Positions 955 through 36,210 of a DNA stretch of 36,210 bases are shown here, piece by piece. The translations under genes were made by a program, and so were the position numbers. Location of the stretch: the NCBI GenBank assembly GCA_030532025.1, contig JAUNLY010000004.1, positions 1 through 36,210 of the forward strand, read 5' to 3'. The notes beneath the pieces were generated by a model. That model was not told the origin of the DNA. It saw only the letters and a program-made list of their open reading frames with translations, and did not search any database. This stretch comes from Eubacteriales bacterium. GTDB taxonomy: Bacteria > Bacillota > Clostridia > Christensenellales > Aristaeellaceae. Every line of letters begins with the position of its first letter. Position 1 is the first letter of the stretch.

Positions 955-2556
955 ATGTATACATTGCTGTTAGTTGACGATGAGCCGGAGATTCGCGACG
1001 GCTTAAGAGAAGTGGTACCCTTTGAAGAACACGGGTTTAAGGTTGTAGATGTTGCTTCAAACGGTATGGAGGGCTACCAGAAGGCGCTTGAATTAAAGCC
1101 CGATTTAGTTATAACAGATATACGTATGCCGCTTTTGGATGGGCTTAGCATGTGCAACGCTATTCAAAAGGAGTTACCCGTATGCCAGTTTATTATTATA
1201 AGCGGCTATGACGATTTTGATTATGCAAGACAGGCAATACAGCTTAACACCATGGCTTATGTATTAAAACCTGTGTCTAAGGACGAGTTTATTGCTTTAC
1301 TTGATAATATTAAACTAAAACTTGACGAACAAAGCGCAAGGCTTAACAACTTTGAAAAAATGAAGCAGAATTACAACGAAAGCCTGCCGCTTTTGATAGA
1401 AATGCTGCTTTCTTCGCTTATTTCAAGCGGTATCAACCAAAAGGCCGCACTTGAAAGAGCCGCAATGTACCAAATAGATATAAGCGCATATTTTTACGCT
1501 GTCGCTATTATAAGGCCGGGACATAGGCGGACAACGACCGACAGAGCCATAAACTACGATGTGCTTATATTAGCCATTATGAACTGCGTTAGGGAAGCCC
1601 TACACGATACCGAGCGAGCCTTTGTATTTAGGCACGAGGGCATACCGCATGTTTTGTTTTTACTGGACGAAAACTCAACCACAAAACAGGAACGCCTTAT
1701 AGAAATATTGGACAGAGCAAGACATACGGCGGAACACTATATAAAAACAAATCTGCTTATAGGCTTAAGCTCCATAGGTTCTGGGCTTGCGTCTCTTCCT
1801 ACATTGGCATTGCAAGCTTCTTCCGCACTTTCTTACAGCAATATATACGACGACAACGAAGTGCTTTGTGTGTCTGACTTAGAACCCGGAAGCAAGGGCG
1901 CCATATCCCCCGAAGAAAGCGTCATAATACAGCTTTCCACCGCATTAAAAACAAACGATTCCGAGGGAATACGCCAAAACATAAAAAAGCTGTTACAACC
2001 CCTTAAAAATGCAGAGCTTACCTACAAAGCGTACAGCGCCTACCTTATGGAAATTATGATGGTGTTGTTTCAAATAATAAGGGATATAGACATAGACGAC
2101 CACGGCTTTGAGAACACATTGGGTAAGCTTTTGCGCTGTCCCCCCTTGTCCAATGCACAGAACCTGCTTGAAGACCTGTTTACCAAGGTAGGCAACGACA
2201 TATCGCAAAAGCGGGAGACCTCCGGCTCTAAAATAGCCAACGAGGCGCAACAGTATATACAACAGAATTTCCGTTCCGAAAACTTAAACATAGAAAGCCT
2301 TTGCAATCACCTGCATATTTCTTCATCTTATTTCAGCATGGTGTTTAAAAAGGAAACCGGTAAGACATTTCACCAATACCTTACACAGCTACGCATGGAC
2401 AAAGCCATGACCCTGCTTGTACAGGGGGATTTAAGGACAAGTGAAGTCGCAAGGCAGATAGGCATACCTGACCCCAGCTATTTTAGCTTTGTTTTTAAGA
2501 AACATTACGGCACATCGCCTTCACAGGTTAAACGCATGAATATCGGTGAAGCATGA
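955..2556 (+). CDS. YesN-type response regulator, AraC-family DNA-binding output
   Basis: A 533-residue two-component regulator. The receiver domain is at the N-terminus (LLVDDEPEIRDGL, with the phospho-acceptor Asp near residue 55 in VITDIRMPLLDG and the switch Lys in YVLKPVSKDEF). A long linker follows, then a C-terminal AraC-type pair of helix-turn-helices over the last ~100 residues (SLCNHLHISSSYFSMVFKKE and VARQIGIPDPSYFSFVFKKH). I chose ATG 955, preceded by GAGGTGG (944-950). An in-frame TTG at 925 lies inside the repeat and has no ribosome site. The stop overlaps the kinase start by 4 nt. Regulators of this type usually activate carbohydrate uptake or catabolism genes, and may also activate their own operon. 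The target here is not visible. Confidence 0.92.
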   Translation: MYTLLLVDDEPEIRDGLREVVPFEEHGFKVVDVASNGMEGYQKALELKPDLVITDIRMPLLDGLSMCNAIQKELPVCQFIIISGYDDFDYARQAIQLNTMAYVLKPVSKDEFIALLDNIKLKLDEQSARLNNFEKMKQNYNESLPLLIEMLLSSLISSGINQKAALERAAMYQIDISAYFYAVAIIRPGHRRTTTDRAINYDVLILAIMNCVREALHDTERAFVFRHEGIPHVLFLLDENSTTKQERLIEILDRARHTAEHYIKTNLLIGLSSIGSGLASLPTLALQASSALSYSNIYDDNEVLCVSDLEPGSKGAISPEESVIIQLSTALKTNDSEGIRQNIKKLLQPLKNAELTYKAYSAYLMEIMMVLFQIIRDIDIDDHGFENTLGKLLRCPPLSNAQNLLEDLFTKVGNDISQKRETSGSKIANEAQQYIQQNFRSENLNIESLCNHLHISSSYFSMVFKKETGKTFHQYLTQLRMDKAMTLLVQGDLRTSEVARQIGIPDPSYFSFVFKKHYGTSPSQVKRMNIGEA

Positions 2557-4286
2557 AGAAAAAATCCAGCCTATACACAATACTATTGGTTTCCTTTATT
2601 GCGTCCTTTATGCTTATGCTGATTTTCCTTTTCTTGATGCTAAACCCCCGCATGAGCAACCTTATGCACGTAAACGCCGTGGACAGGATAGAAGAAACCG
2701 TAAAACAGAGTGTTGCGGGCTTTTCTCGCTATACAAACGACTTGCTCGGCAAAATGCAATATGCAGTTTCGATACTTCCCGACAAAAAAACGGAGGACGT
2801 CTCTTGGCAGGATACACTTAAGGTGCTTAAATATAGCTCCCCCGAAATAATAAATATAGCCGTATTTAACGAAACGGGAGGGCTTATTTTTTCCGCAGAC
2901 GGCGACTTAAGAAAGCCCATAAGCCATGTTGAACACGAAAACTGGTTTAAAAAAACTATAGAAAGAGAGGGTTCTTCCGCCTTCTTTTCAAAGCCACATG
3001 TGCAGTCTATTTTTGACAGCCGTTATTCGCATGTAATAACGCTGTCGCAGGCATTCCGCTACGGCAAGGGCGGTTCAACACATTTAGGCGTTATTATGTT
3101 TGATGTAGATTACGGCAAATTCAACCAGCTTATAAACAACACCTCTCTTGGAAAAAGCGGCTACACATTCGTAATAGACGAAAACGATAGCATTGTGCTG
3201 CACCGCTTTAAATCGGAGCTTGATTTAAAGCTTATAGAAGAAAAACTCTCTCCCATCGCGGATACCATACTCGGCACTAAAAGCGCCGAGCAAAACGGAC
3301 GAGAATGCGTTTATATTATACAATCCTTAGAGCAGACACGCTGGCGTATGGTAGGCTTAGCCTATGTGGACGAAATTTCACAGATGCAGTCCTCCTTTAA
3401 AAGGCTATTTATAATAGCTTTAATAAGCACGGCATCTATAGCCATGAGTATGGCGGTGTTTTTATCCGTACAGATTACAAAACCGCTGTCAGATTTTGAA
3501 AAAACCATTATGCAAGTGCAACAAGGCGATATGAACGCACGCATGAAAGAACCTATATTCCGCGAAATGCAGCTCGTATCCGACAGCTTTGACGCTATGC
3601 TCTCCCGCATAAGGGAGCTTTTAACGCTTATAGTGCAGGAGCAGGAAACAAAGCGCCTGCACGAGTTAAACGCTTTGCAGGCACAAATTAACCCGCATTT
3701 TCTTTATAATACTCTGGATTCAATAATTTGGATGCAGGAGCGTGGCAACACAAAAGAATCCATAGAGATGGTTTCCGCGTTGGCGCGCCTGTTCAGAATA
3801 TCCATAAGCAAGGGCAAACATGAGATAACTGTACGGGAAGAATTAGAGCATGTGCGCAACTACCTTTTAATTCAAAAGCTACGCTTTAAAAACAAATTCG
3901 ACTACCAAATACACTTTAAGCCCGAAACATTGGAGCTTACAACTATTAAACTTATATTGCAGCCGCTTGCGGAAAACTCTCTAAACCACGCAATAGATGA
4001 GTACGGCGACGAACAGCTGAGCATTATTATTTCAAGTGAAATAGAAAATGACTGCCTGCTTTTCACCGTTTATGACAATGGGGTTGGCATACCAGAAGAA
4101 AAACTTAAAAACCTGCTCAGCGACAAGACCAAAAACAGCGGTATAGGGCTTAAAAATGTGCATGAACGCATACAGCTGTCCTACGGCAAGGAATACGGGC
4201 TTGTAATAGAAAGCAAGGAAGACTACGGCACCAAGATATATATACGTATACCTATAAAAAGGGGGTTGCCTGATGAGAAAAAATAA
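2553..4286 (+). CDS. YesM-type sensor histidine kinase with extracellular Cache domain
   Basis: A 577-residue membrane kinase. A first membrane helix (about residues 7-29) is followed by an extracytoplasmic dCache-like sensor region (about 35-280, with SGYTFVIDENDSIVLH), a second helix (about 283-305) and a HAMP linker. The His_kinase domain has the phospho-accepting His near 381 in QINPHFLYNTLDSIIW. The ATPase domain carries the N-box (LQPLAENSLNHAI) and G-box (YDNGVGIPEE). It overlaps the response regulator by 4 nt and the next gene by 14 nt, so the genes are surely co-expressed. It should phosphorylate the AraC-type partner. The ligand is unknown, but the two sugar-binding-type proteins downstream suggest a carbohydrate signal, perhaps presented by a binding protein. 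Confidence 0.92.
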   Translation: MKKKSSLYTILLVSFIASFMLMLIFLFLMLNPRMSNLMHVNAVDRIEETVKQSVAGFSRYTNDLLGKMQYAVSILPDKKTEDVSWQDTLKVLKYSSPEIINIAVFNETGGLIFSADGDLRKPISHVEHENWFKKTIEREGSSAFFSKPHVQSIFDSRYSHVITLSQAFRYGKGGSTHLGVIMFDVDYGKFNQLINNTSLGKSGYTFVIDENDSIVLHRFKSELDLKLIEEKLSPIADTILGTKSAEQNGRECVYIIQSLEQTRWRMVGLAYVDEISQMQSSFKRLFIIALISTASIAMSMAVFLSVQITKPLSDFEKTIMQVQQGDMNARMKEPIFREMQLVSDSFDAMLSRIRELLTLIVQEQETKRLHELNALQAQINPHFLYNTLDSIIWMQERGNTKESIEMVSALARLFRISISKGKHEITVREELEHVRNYLLIQKLRFKNKFDYQIHFKPETLELTTIKLILQPLAENSLNHAIDEYGDEQLSIIISSEIENDCLLFTVYDNGVGIPEEKLKNLLSDKTKNSGIGLKNVHERIQLSYGKEYGLVIESKEDYGTKIYIRIPIKRGLPDEKK

Positions 4287-7238: not shown

Positions 7239-7245
7239 CCTTTTG

Positions 7246-7476
7246 CGATGAAGGGAAAGAGTAAGCTGTGGTTTTCTTTCAGAGAGTATCCGGTCAGTGC
7301 AAGGGTACAGAAGATGCAGCCGAATACATCCCGGAGCACGGCATTGAAAACAGTAGGTGTCCGGCGGTGCGCCGCTTACAGCGCAGGATTTACTCCATGA
7401 GGGTGCTTTGCACCGAACCGGAAGTGGTACCGCGATAATTCGCCTTCCTCAGATATTTCTGAAGGAGGCTTTTTTT
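7246..7476 (+). promoter_or_regulatory. Tyrosine-specific T-box riboswitch with terminator
   Basis: The leader senses uncharged tRNA-Tyr. GGGAAAGAGTAA (7253-7264) and CGAATACATCCC (7321-7332) face each other as the Stem I specifier loop: AGTA/GAA is the loop-E motif, and the triplet TAC at 7325-7327 is a Tyr codon. AGAGAGTATCCGG (about 7281-7293) is the AG-bulge and distal loop region. The T-box itself is GTGGTACCGCG (7424-7434); its TGGT can pair with the ACCA tRNA end. The terminator is formed by GCCTTCCTCAGA (7442-7453) and CTGAAGGAGGC (7459-7469), followed by seven T's. TTCGCCTTCC can alternatively pair with the T-box region as antiterminator. The Tyr specifier agrees with tyrS in the operon. 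Confidence 0.95.
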
Positions 7477-7488
7477 GAAGGAGGGAAT

Positions 7489-8673
7489 ATGGCAGACATA
7501 TCTTATGCAAAACGTTTGGAGCCAATTACAGGATCGGCAATAAGAGAGCTTTTAAAGCTCACTGCAAAGCCCGGTATGATTTCGTTTGCCGGCGGCAACC
7601 CTGGCAATTTCGCCCTGCCGGATAAACAGGTGGCGGAAATCGCCCACGAGTTGCTTTTAAGCAACGGCAAAAAACTTTTGCAATATGGGCCTACGGAGGG
7701 CTATAGGCCTTTAATAGAGGTGCTTGTAAAATATATAAAAGAAGAATTTGGCGCAGATGTTTCGGAAGATGAAATACTGCCCGTAAGCGGTTCTTCACAG
7801 GCTATGGACCTGTTATGTAAAGCCTGCCTTAACCCTGGAGATACCGTGCTTGTTGAAAGCCCCACTTTTATAGGCAATTTACAATGCCTTAAAATATTTG
7901 AAGCGAATTTAGTGCCGCTTGAGAGCGATGAGCACGGCATTGTATTAGAAGATATTGAGCAAAAAATTAAACAGTACAATCCTAAAATGCTCTACACCAT
8001 ACCCACCTTTCAAAACCCCACGGGTATTACAATGAATGTTGAGCGCAGGAAAGCTATAGCCGAGATGGCAGCAGAATATAAAATGATAGTAGCAGAAGAT
8101 GACCCCTACCATTGCCTGCGCTACAAGGGCGAAAACCTGCCGACTATAAAGTCCTTTGATAAAGATGGTTGGGTAGCATTGCTCGGTAGTTTTTCTAAAG
8201 TTATATCCCCTGGGCTTCGTGTAGGCTTTGTTGCAACGGACAAAAATCTAATAAGAAAGCTTACTATATGCAAGCAGTCTGCAGATGTTCACACGCCAAA
8301 CCTTAACCAAGCGATAGTTACGGAGTTTTTAAAACGTAATTTACTGAAAGATATTGTTATTAACGCCTGCAAAGTCTACGGCGAACAGCTAAACACAATG
8401 CTTGATGGTTTGAAAAACATAAAGGCGGTAACTAAATACACCGAGCCCTCCGGCGGACTATTCATTTTTGCGGAGATTGCCAAAGGTAAAAACGTAAACG
8501 ACTATTTCAAAAAAGCTTTAGAAAAAAACGTAGCATTTGTGCCGGGCGCTCCCTTTTACCCCCAAGGTGGGCATGAAAACACATTTAGGCTTAACTTTTC
8601 TAATGCCGATATAGAAACAATAAAAAAAGGCATGGACATATTAAAAGAAGTATTTGACGAACAAGGAGAATAA
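7489..8673 (+). CDS. PLP-dependent class I/II aminotransferase (probably aromatic amino acid)
   Basis: A 394-residue fold-type I aminotransferase of the MocR/LysN/Aro8-like branch. Visible features are the N-terminal [33 protein letters not shown] (cofactor phosphate cup), [11 protein letters not shown] (conserved NPTG), [11 protein letters not shown] (Asp that contacts the pyridine nitrogen), and the PLP lysine in [15 protein letters not shown]. The C-terminal Arg for the substrate carboxylate is in [10 protein letters not shown] 7489 follows GAAGGAGG, just past the T-box terminator. The tyrosine T-box and the 2-nt gap to tyrS suggest it makes tyrosine, or tyrosine and phenylalanine, from the arylpyruvate. 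That specificity is inferred from context, since related enzymes also act on 2-aminoadipate or branched substrates. Confidence 0.9.
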
Positions 8674-16366: not shown

Positions 16367-16374
16367 ATATATTT

Positions 16375-16503
16375 ATACTAATCCAAATCGTTAATGCATA
16401 GAGTTACGCAGGATTTTTTCTTTTTTGCAAAGCCGACTGAGAGAGGTGAAGCAAAAATGGAAAAAGACAAGTTTATCAAAGCATTAAGGTTTAAGATTAG
16501 TAT
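16375..16503 (+). repeat. Dispersed palindromic repeat, copy 2 (129 bp)
   Basis: Terminal inverted repeat ATACTAATC (16375-16383) / GATTAGTAT (16495-16503), then inner pair TTAATGC / GCATTAA, then complementary tracts (GGATTTTTTCTTTTTTGC near 16410-16427 against GCAAAAATGGAAAAAG near 16451-16466). The whole unit can fold as one long imperfect hairpin. It lacks about 29 bp present in the middle of copy 3. A GAGGTGA-preceded frame, [17 protein letters not shown], runs 16457-16510; the frame is also open from ATG 16394 (38 residues). It fills the space between the liv terminator and the metK stop codon, four bases from the latter. Confidence 0.8.
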
Positions 16504-16506
16504 TAT

Positions 16507-17679
16507 TTAAAACTTACGCTTTAGCTGTTCTGCCAAGTCGAGTCTTTCCCAAGGCAGATCCAAGTCGTTTCTGCCAAAATGGCCATAGGTCGCGGTCTGA
16601 CGATAAATAGGTCTTCTAAGGTCGAGTTTCTCTATTATGCCACCAGGGCTTAAGTCTATATTATCCCTTATGTAGCGGGCGATTTTGCCTTCGTCCGCCT
16701 TGCCTGTGCCAAACAAGTCTATGCGGTAGCTTACAGGTTCCGCAACGCCTATTGCATAGGCAAGCGCTACCTCGCACCTTTCGGCAAGACCCGATGCCAC
16801 TATATTTTTAGCTATATAGCGTGCAGCATATGCGGCGGATCTGTCGACTTTTGTCGGATCCTTACCGCTAAAGCAGCCGCCGCCGTGCGGTGCAAAACCA
16901 CCATAGGTATCGACTATAATTTTTCTGCCGGTTAAGCCACTGTCCCCTGCAGGGCCTCCTATTACAAACCTGCCGCTTGGGTTTACATAGTAGCGAGTTT
17001 GTGCATTTAAAAGTTCTTCCGGAAGTATGGGCTTTATTACGTGCTCCATCATCTCTTTTCTTATTTCTTCTTGGCTTATGTCTGCATCGTGCTGGGTTGA
17101 AATAACAACGCTGTCTATGCTTACGGGTTTATAGCCTTCGTAGCTTACTGTAACTTGAGATTTGCCGTCCGGGCGCATCCAGTTAAATTTTCCGCTCTTT
17201 CTTATTTCGTCCATTCTGCGGGTAAGCCTATGCGAATACACTATAGGGGTCGGCATATATTCCGGAGTTTCGTTGCAGGCAAAGCCAAACATCATGCCTT
17301 GGTCTCCGGCACCCAAAATTTGCTTAGCGTCTTTATTATCTCTCGTTTCCTGCGCACGGCTTACACCATCGCTTATATCCGCCGATTGTTCGGTAATTGC
17401 CGTAAGCACCGAGCAAGAATGACCGTCAAATCCCAAGGCGGAATCGTTATAGCCTATGTCAAGCACTACTTTTCTAACAATATCAGGTATAGGTACATAG
17501 GTTTTGGTGCTTATTTCGCCCATAACAAGTATAAGGCCTGTGGTTGTGCAGGTTTCGCATGCGACACGGGCATTTGGGTCATCTTCTAAAATGGCGTCTA
17601 ATATAGCGTCGGACACCTGATCGCACAGCTTATCAGGGTGTCCCATTGTTACGGATTCTGAAGCAAATTGTCTTTTCAT
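16507..17679 (-). CDS. metK: S-adenosylmethionine synthetase
   Basis: A 390-residue cytoplasmic enzyme making S-adenosylmethionine from methionine and ATP. The N-terminus [20 protein letters not shown] holds the catalytic His of [17 protein letters not shown] is the conserved loop, and [21 protein letters not shown] is close to the family [16 protein letters not shown] signature. The length is normal. ATG 17679 follows AGAAAGGA. Expression is controlled by a SAM-I riboswitch in the leader, giving product feedback. It converges on the liv operon, with repeat copy 2 between them, and diverges from the aspartokinase gene, whose pathway leads to methionine. Confidence 0.97.
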
Positions 17680-17743: not shown

Positions 17744-17752
17744 AAAATGTGA

Positions 17753-17843
17753 CTTATCTGTCAGCTTTCGCTGCTGGATTTGGCACCTTGCATAAGCGGT
17801 TGCCGGGGTTCACAGGGCCAGTCCCTCCCCCACTCTTGATAAG
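17753..17843 (-). promoter_or_regulatory. SAM-I (S-box) riboswitch
   Basis: Read on the minus strand the aptamer opens CTTATC-AAGAGTGGGGGAGGG, continues ACTGGCCCTGTGAA and CCCCGGCAACC, then AAGGTGCCAAATCC and CAGC...GCTG, and closes with GACAGATAAG. These are the conserved S-box elements in order: P1 strands, K-turn GAGGGA/GGCCC region, GCAACC core, GGTGCCAA, P4. It lies between the promoter and the terminator of metK, so SAM binding should stop metK transcription. Confidence 0.97.
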
Positions 17844-17862
17844 CGATATTCAATTAGCATAT

Positions 17863-35316: not shown

Positions 35317-36072
35317 GTGAACAATTCCATAGAGCAATTAGCAAACTACATGCACACTGCCAAATACATAGTATTTTTCGGAGGCGCCGGCGTATCCACC
35401 GAAAGCGGTATACCTGATTTTCGTAGCCAAGACGGGTTGTACAACACAAAATGGAAAGACCCGCCGGAAACAGTGCTGAGCAGAACTTATTTTAACCGCA
35501 AACCCGAAAGCTTTTTTATGTTCTACCGAGAAAAAATAATACATGAAAACGCAAGACCCAACGAATCGCATAAAGCGCTTGCAAAGCTTGAAGAAATGGG
35601 CAAGCTTAAGGCTGTTATAACGCAGAACATAGACGGCCTGCACCAGATGGCCGGCAGCAAAAACGTGCTTGAATTGCACGGATCCATACTTAAAAACCAC
35701 TGTGTCAAATGCCATAAGTTTTATCCGTTGGAAAAAATAAGCTCCTCAAAAAGCATACCTTACTGCGACTGTGGCGGCATTATAAAGCCCGATGTGGTGC
35801 TGTACGAAGAAGCATTAGACCAAGAAGTTATAGAAAAAACCATTATGCACGTAAGGCGTGCAGATTTACTTATAATAGGCGGAACTTCTCTTACCGTATA
35901 CCCCGCTGCCGCATTTGTAAGGGAGTGCAAAGGAAAAATAGCCATTATAAACCGAGATACAACCTATATGGACGCATACGCCGACATAGTAATAAACGAT
36001 AAGATAGGCGAAACGCTCAAACATGCAATGGAAATTATGGATAAAATAAATCATACTAATCCAAATCGTTAA
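35317..36072 (+). CDS. NAD-dependent protein deacetylase, Sir2 family
   Basis: A 251-residue cytosolic sirtuin that removes acyl groups from lysines, consuming NAD. FFGGAGVSTESGIPDFRSQDG is the NAD-binding signature. QNIDGLHQMAG and ELHGS carry the catalytic His region. The zinc site is HCVKCHK with YCDCGG, and PDVVLYEEAL and GTSLTVYPAAAFV complete the Rossmann site. I start it at GTG 35317, 9 nt after AGGAG; an in-frame GTG at 35308 would directly touch that site. The last residues (HTNPNR) and the stop TAA come from the left end of repeat copy 3, so the element appears to have replaced or extended the original C-terminus. Confidence 0.95.
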   Translation: MNNSIEQLANYMHTAKYIVFFGGAGVSTESGIPDFRSQDGLYNTKWKDPPETVLSRTYFNRKPESFFMFYREKIIHENARPNESHKALAKLEEMGKLKAVITQNIDGLHQMAGSKNVLELHGSILKNHCVKCHKFYPLEKISSSKSIPYCDCGGIIKPDVVLYEEALDQEVIEKTIMHVRRADLLIIGGTSLTVYPAAAFVRECKGKIAIINRDTTYMDAYADIVINDKIGETLKHAMEIMDKINHTNPNR

Positions 36073-36210
36073 TGCAAAGAGAAACGCAGGATTTTTTCTT
36101 TTTTGTAAAGCCGAATGAAGGAGGCGTAGTGGAGCTACACTGACTGAATGAGGTGAAGCAAAAATGGAAAAAGACAAGTTTATCAAAGCATTAAGGTGCA
36201 GGATTAGTAT
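36053..36210 (+). repeat. Dispersed palindromic repeat, copy 3 (158 bp)
   Basis: The terminal inverted repeat is the best of the three: ATACTAATCC (36053-36062) and GGATTAGTAT (36201-36210), a perfect 10-bp pair, with TTAATGC / GCATTAA inside. It has the fullest middle, including GGCGTAGTGGAGCTACAC, absent from copy 2. A TGAGGTGA-preceded frame beginning MEKDKFIKALR starts at ATG 36164 and runs off the window. The left end overlaps the sir2 3' end by 20 bp and provides its stop codon. Confidence 0.8.

Follow-up and report, generated by a model that had tools for sequence, protein, structure and literature searches.

A family of short palindromic elements with a conserved folded core in Clostridia, probably mobilised in trans by IS630-family transposases

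The window, by which is meant the whole 36,210-nucleotide stretch analysed here, contains three copies of a short palindromic element, all on the + strand, which covariance model R1 assigns to a single family. The first copy (790-936; 56.5 bits, E 2.8e-10; RNA fold -34.3, z -5.2) is old and diverged, with ends AACTAAATG...AAATTAGTA and no exact target duplication. Its site is the presumed 5' leader of a response-regulator gene beginning at 961, and the response-regulator and histidine-kinase genes (961-4286) probably have this copy as their 5' leader. A promoter-like site, TTGACA-17-CATAAT, lies at 759-787 and ends 2 bp before it. The second copy (16376-16502; 137.9 bits; fold z -5.4) is located between livF and metK and belongs to a 127-bp size class without the 29-bp apical part of the core; from the sequence and the analysis of target duplications, it is bordered by TTA on the left (16373-16375) and TTA on the right (16503-16505). 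The third copy (36054-36209; 183 bits; fold -51.2, z -7.7), which was aligned with copies from other genomes, represents the 156-bp class, the full-length form conserved across genera. It is preceded in the sequence by TCA (36051-36053), the right-hand duplication lying beyond the contig end, and its terminal inverted repeats are TACTAATCCAAATCGTTAATGC (36054-36075), similar to the IS630 ends of genera g30 and g20, and GCATTAAGGTGCAGGATTAGTA (36188-36209). Between these lies the conserved folded core, with approximate limits of 36088-36172 as judged from covariation and counts of tandem GA, in which a T-rich arm is followed by an apical GTAG/CTAC hairpin with three tandem GA/GA steps and then by an A-rich arm. 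Elsewhere in the window, a T-box leader (Rfam RF00230, 99.9 bits; 7239-7450, + strand) precedes and overlaps the start of an aminotransferase-like ORF (7357-8673), and a SAM riboswitch (Rfam RF00162, 82.5 bits; 17751-17845, - strand) is found upstream of metK (16507-17679).

The preliminary description had recognised these same three units, with edges that have here been corrected by one base. The ends it gave, ATACTAATC/GATTAGTAT, are those of the element proper, TACTAATC...GATTAGTA, together with an outer A and T that are part of a 3-bp target duplication; its inner TTAATGC/GCATTAA pair, its T-rich and A-rich arms and its 29-bp difference in apical length all agree with the present analysis. 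The units are not the product of chance: all three can be read directly, their z-scores are strongly negative, and their ends recur far above control counts. The genome searched is a draft of 1,609,229 bases (1.6 Mb) in 150 contigs, many of whose breaks fall inside copies. BLAST of copy 2 against it gave 48 places, while the TACTAATCCAAATC end, with one mismatch allowed, was found 72 times (reversed control, 2) and the 22-base end 81 times with up to three mismatches (control, 0). In all, the family has about 80 left ends in this genome. The resulting density of one copy per ~20 kb is near the one per 15 kb or so estimated from the window alone, and because some copies lie at contig ends the real copy number may be higher.

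With TACTAATCC and GGATTAGTA as its two extremities, the element uses TNA as its target, and these 3 bp are duplicated on insertion. Of the 44 copies of the host genome that could be tested, 34 have flanks that agree over exactly 3 bp and none has a match of 4 bp or more; in nearly all copies the first position of the duplication is T and the third is A. Among TNA-flanked copies the middle base agrees on the two sides in 33 of 40 (18.8 when shuffled), and in other genomes in 35 of 45 (shuffled, 14.9), so that a true duplication, and not merely a site preference, is indicated. Empty sites were found as well. The genes livF and metK are adjacent in four of five other genomes of the genus (in the fifth, G035, they are on separate contigs), and copy 2 is absent from the junction in all four. 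The clearest of these sites, in G136, reads CTATTTATTTGACC, compared with ATTTA-[element]-TTATTTAAA in the host genome; taken alone it is suggestive, the stretch being A+T-rich. A base-exact empty site is provided by genome G096, where a 160-bp member with TTA on either side interrupts the promoter of an IS630 element. Removal of the member and of one TTA gives GGATTATGGTATAATACTC, which aligns with TGGTATAAT, the promoter found in sister copies of the IS630 element. The same site rules out a 2-bp TA duplication with the TA counted inside the ends, since duplication of TA only would give another sequence.

The family thus has the features of a miniature inverted-repeat transposable element (MITE), as had been suggested: it is short and non-coding, it has terminal inverted repeats and a target duplication, and its dispersed copies can be set against empty sites. 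An autonomous element with the same ends is present in related genera and not in the host genome. No transposase had been noticed in the window, and for the families searched this extends to the whole genome, in which neither DDE_Tnp_1, DDE_Tnp_1_2 and DDE_3 nor the transposase of a relative, G093, found a match. IS5-type transposases (PF01609, PF13586), suspected first from the 3-bp TNA duplication, are likewise not encoded. A transposase with these ends has either been lost from the present genome or been left unassembled in the draft. In G093, from another genus of the family, two facing ends of the same type are separated by 1,145 bp, and between them a transposase is encoded in two overlapping frames; it matches DDE_3 (PF13358, 2.2e-20) and, in the second reading frame, the NCBIfam IS630 model (NF033545, 129.1 bits; cut-off 100). 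Among 300 genomes, 34 contain related IS630 copies, and where the ends of these are clear, exact TNA duplications are frequent. Related genera hold 1.1-kb IS630-family elements with the ends and the duplication of the MITE. The MITE ends of the host genome are 0.70-0.76 identical to the IS630 ends of g30 and g20, as against 0.36-0.57 for other IS630 elements. Movement of the element in trans by IS630-family transposases is, from these comparisons with relatives, strongly supported. Simple internal deletion of an IS630 element was considered as its origin and rejected, because the 17 IS630 loci have no core of their own, the single match being a MITE nested in an IS.

Among the closest known systems is RUP of Streptococcus pneumoniae, which is short (107 bp) and gene-less, with ends like those of IS630-Spn1, proposed movement in trans, and a folded structure in which the ends are paired (PMC3049150). 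The present element differs in its 3-bp TNA duplication, its occurrence in many genera and the compensatory changes between genera in its core; neither the string 'covari' nor 'compensatory' appears in the RUP paper (PMC3049150). ISY100 and the IS630/Tc1/mariner elements share the IS630 class of transposase with its putative helper (NF033545, DDE_3), but described IS630 elements such as ISY100 insert at TA with a 2-bp duplication (PMC2170065), whereas both the MITE and the IS630 elements with its ends duplicate TNA. TAA duplications have been described in eukaryotes, for pogo elements of the Fot type (PMC7386202). A search of open-licence papers found neither bacterial IS630 elements with TNA duplications nor MITEs in Christensenellales. 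No Rfam family matches the element at the gathering threshold, and none does so credibly at a relaxed threshold. BOX, SPRITE, ERIC and Correia elements presumably differ from it in their ends and sequences. Like it, these repeats are modular, palindromic and mostly intergenic, with size variants and, in some cases, mutual nesting (see also PMC3049150).

Both ends could be rebuilt for 46 copies of the host genome, which range in length from 62 to 316 bp, the most frequent lengths being 156 bp (17 copies) and 127 bp (7 copies). Forms of 195-316 bp hold all or parts of a second, related element of 159 bp, TACTCATTCC...GGGAAGGAGTA, apparently as a nested insertion; this second family is seen within copies of the first at positions 221-379 of L051 (- strand) and elsewhere in the genome, and the copy in L056 sits within an older copy. 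Forms of about 62-108 bp are deletions, several of them with AAAGA-like short repeats at the junction, and we read them as independent slippage events. Since core-less forms (~62 bp) with flanking TNA exist, one round of insertion may not require the core. Coding capacity is absent: whichever frame is read, 50-61 of 64 copies contain stops. The peptide MEKDKFIKALR, read from ATGGAAAAAGAC, was discarded for the same reason and because its ATG is not conserved.

With a covariance model built from 37 copies of the host genome, a hairpin of 145-161 bp was found in 92 of 300 genomes and 26 of the 50 genera of the family, nearly always at full length. Sixty-four copies of 154-161 bp (4 from the host genome and 60 from others) were aligned with MAFFT, without reference to structure. 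RNAalifold predicted 42 pairs from this alignment, 36 of them with compensatory double changes. For a named structure of 44 pairs, 92.8% of cells are paired (73.9% when shuffled) and 566 cells show double changes, compared with 194 in shuffled and 77-132 in slid controls. Below the apical hairpin the three tandem GA/GA steps recur at intervals of four to five nucleotides, and they are retained by 53, 49 and 57 of the 64 copies. The + strand is the more stable in 63 of 64 copies with RNA and DNA parameters alike, and G.U cells outnumber A.C cells by 253 to 43 in this set, where copies within a genus are not independent and copies from other genomes were oriented with the covariance model, itself biased towards G.U-rich strands; given conserved landmarks such as the GA steps and the T tract, systematic strand error is unlikely, and single copies may be misoriented. 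Such an excess of G.U over A.C means that one strand is kept foldable. Copies within the host genome depart from consensus pairs by 73 G.U and 56 A.C, a ratio different from that between genera (p = 4e-10), with slightly different definitions in the two sets, the cross-genus count taking in consensus-G.U pairs. Because copies in one genome decay without G.U bias, selection seems to act on the propagating lineage rather than on each copy. The suggestion that the units might be a structured RNA family is therefore borne out by strong, strand-specific covariation across genera, in which RNA and single-stranded DNA are indistinguishable. Maintenance of pairing in a hairpin core by paired mutations across genera is unusual for MITE-type elements.

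We consider it probable that the element is a MITE moved in trans by a TNA-duplicating group of IS630 transposases and that the folded + strand of its core helps its propagation. The first part of this, movement by the IS630 group with TNA duplications, is well supported; the pairing data are best explained if selection acts, at element level, on the folded core, whose exact role is something we infer. In the mechanism proposed, a non-autonomous transposon of Clostridia, which inserts at TNA with duplication of 3 bp, would be mobilised in trans by transposases of the IS630 family that have 1.1-kb elements of their own with these ends and the TNA duplication. Its core is a long hairpin of near-constant length in which compensatory changes have maintained the pairing, and the + strand, not its complement, is kept foldable. 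Since single copies lose pairing without G.U bias and long-term lineages keep it, the folded + strand, as RNA transcribed from the element or as transient single-stranded DNA, would aid the spread of the element without service to the host at each site. Its likeliest role would be that of a handle bound during mobilisation, or of a protector of active copies.

Comparison of the host-genome copies with those of every genus examined gave a core identity of 0.64-0.73 and an end identity of 0.39-0.64, the least similar ends being those of other species of the same genus (0.39). This suggests that ends are exchanged or rapidly adapted, or that the elements are transferred horizontally; the core appears to be retained while the ends follow the local IS630. 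A second covariance model, used beyond the family, gave hits in 10 of 391 genomes, the host genome among them; those in three other families of the class score lower and are equally long, and some have TACTAATCC ends and TNA duplications. Three elements of family f25 (L335, L338 and L343) have the same length and a similar core with different ends (GAACAAC...GTTGTTC), and may depend on a different group of transposases. Full-length copies in named records come from uncultured Clostridia, many of them from ruminants, and one uncultured Christensenellaceae. Three human faecal contigs filed as phages also carry copies; one of these records, MT837947.1 (L328, positions 163-323), contains a full-length member flanked by TCA on both sides. 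A search for plasmid carriage gave no match. It is possible, and we put it forward tentatively, that the element is a transposon with a conserved structured RNA cargo, in which the core persists across families of Clostridia by means of locally active IS630 ends and the folded RNA is needed for spread.

Alternatively, the + strand might fold as DNA and be processed in that form. The attC sites and the ends of IS200/IS605 elements are processed as folded single-stranded DNA, and tandem GA pairs are stable in DNA. The greater stability of the + strand with DNA parameters agrees with such a role, as does the orientation of copies in the host genome, which is biased with GC skew (31 versus 8). However, ISY100 uses double-strand breaks (PMC2170065), and the helper here is a DDE transposase of IS630 type whose staggered-cut duplications fit double-stranded cut-and-paste. 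In other genera, moreover, the skew bias (16 versus 11) is not significant, and a handle of single-stranded DNA is on balance rather unlikely.

We regard as unlikely the view that this is an ordinary IS630-derived MITE, in which only the ends matter and a passenger interior keeps its palindromy by quasipalindrome correction during replication, and not by selection. When one arm is copied onto the other by template switching, double changes arise without selection; the frequency of apical and core deletions in the host genome also implies that the core is not needed for a copy to persist. Yet such correction should erase mismatches and treat G.T and A.C equally, whereas across genera the symmetric loops and the three GA/GA steps have been retained, and G.U is strongly preferred to A.C. 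The core also has a higher identity than the ends in every genus compared.

There remains the proposal, also made at the outset, that the unit is a regulatory hairpin domesticated near gene ends and serving host genes as a transcript-end or leader structure. Copies are mostly intergenic, and the 3' end of a facing gene is no more than 40 nt away from their right end in 17 cases in the host genome (3 in the opposite orientation) and in 15 in other genera (again 3), counts which rest on simple ORF calls and are indicative; such a pattern can also arise from insertion at TAA stop codons together with purging elsewhere. Relative to the nearest gene end, the + strand is in most cases the antisense one, so RNA from read-through of the neighbouring gene would mostly be the opposite strand. 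Intrinsic terminators (a G+C-rich hairpin followed by a T run) are absent from within copies 1 and 2, and the order of the arms, T-hairpin-A, is the reverse of such a terminator. Domestication is possible for copy 1, with its good promoter-like site just upstream; as a general rule it is not supported and is very unlikely, given that copies of the host genome decay without pairing bias and that copy 2 is absent from the same junction in congeneric genomes.

The interior of a MITE is commonly regarded as leftover sequence. Here it is conserved better than the ends, and keeps its pairing through double mutations across genera, while the ends seem to be swapped to suit the local transposase. The IS630 group that would serve it, with its 3-bp TNA duplication, is an exception to the TA rule that has been reported for IS630/mariner enzymes. 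If the core does drive the spread of the element, it would be a selfish structured nucleic acid, and a new RNA or DNA motif.
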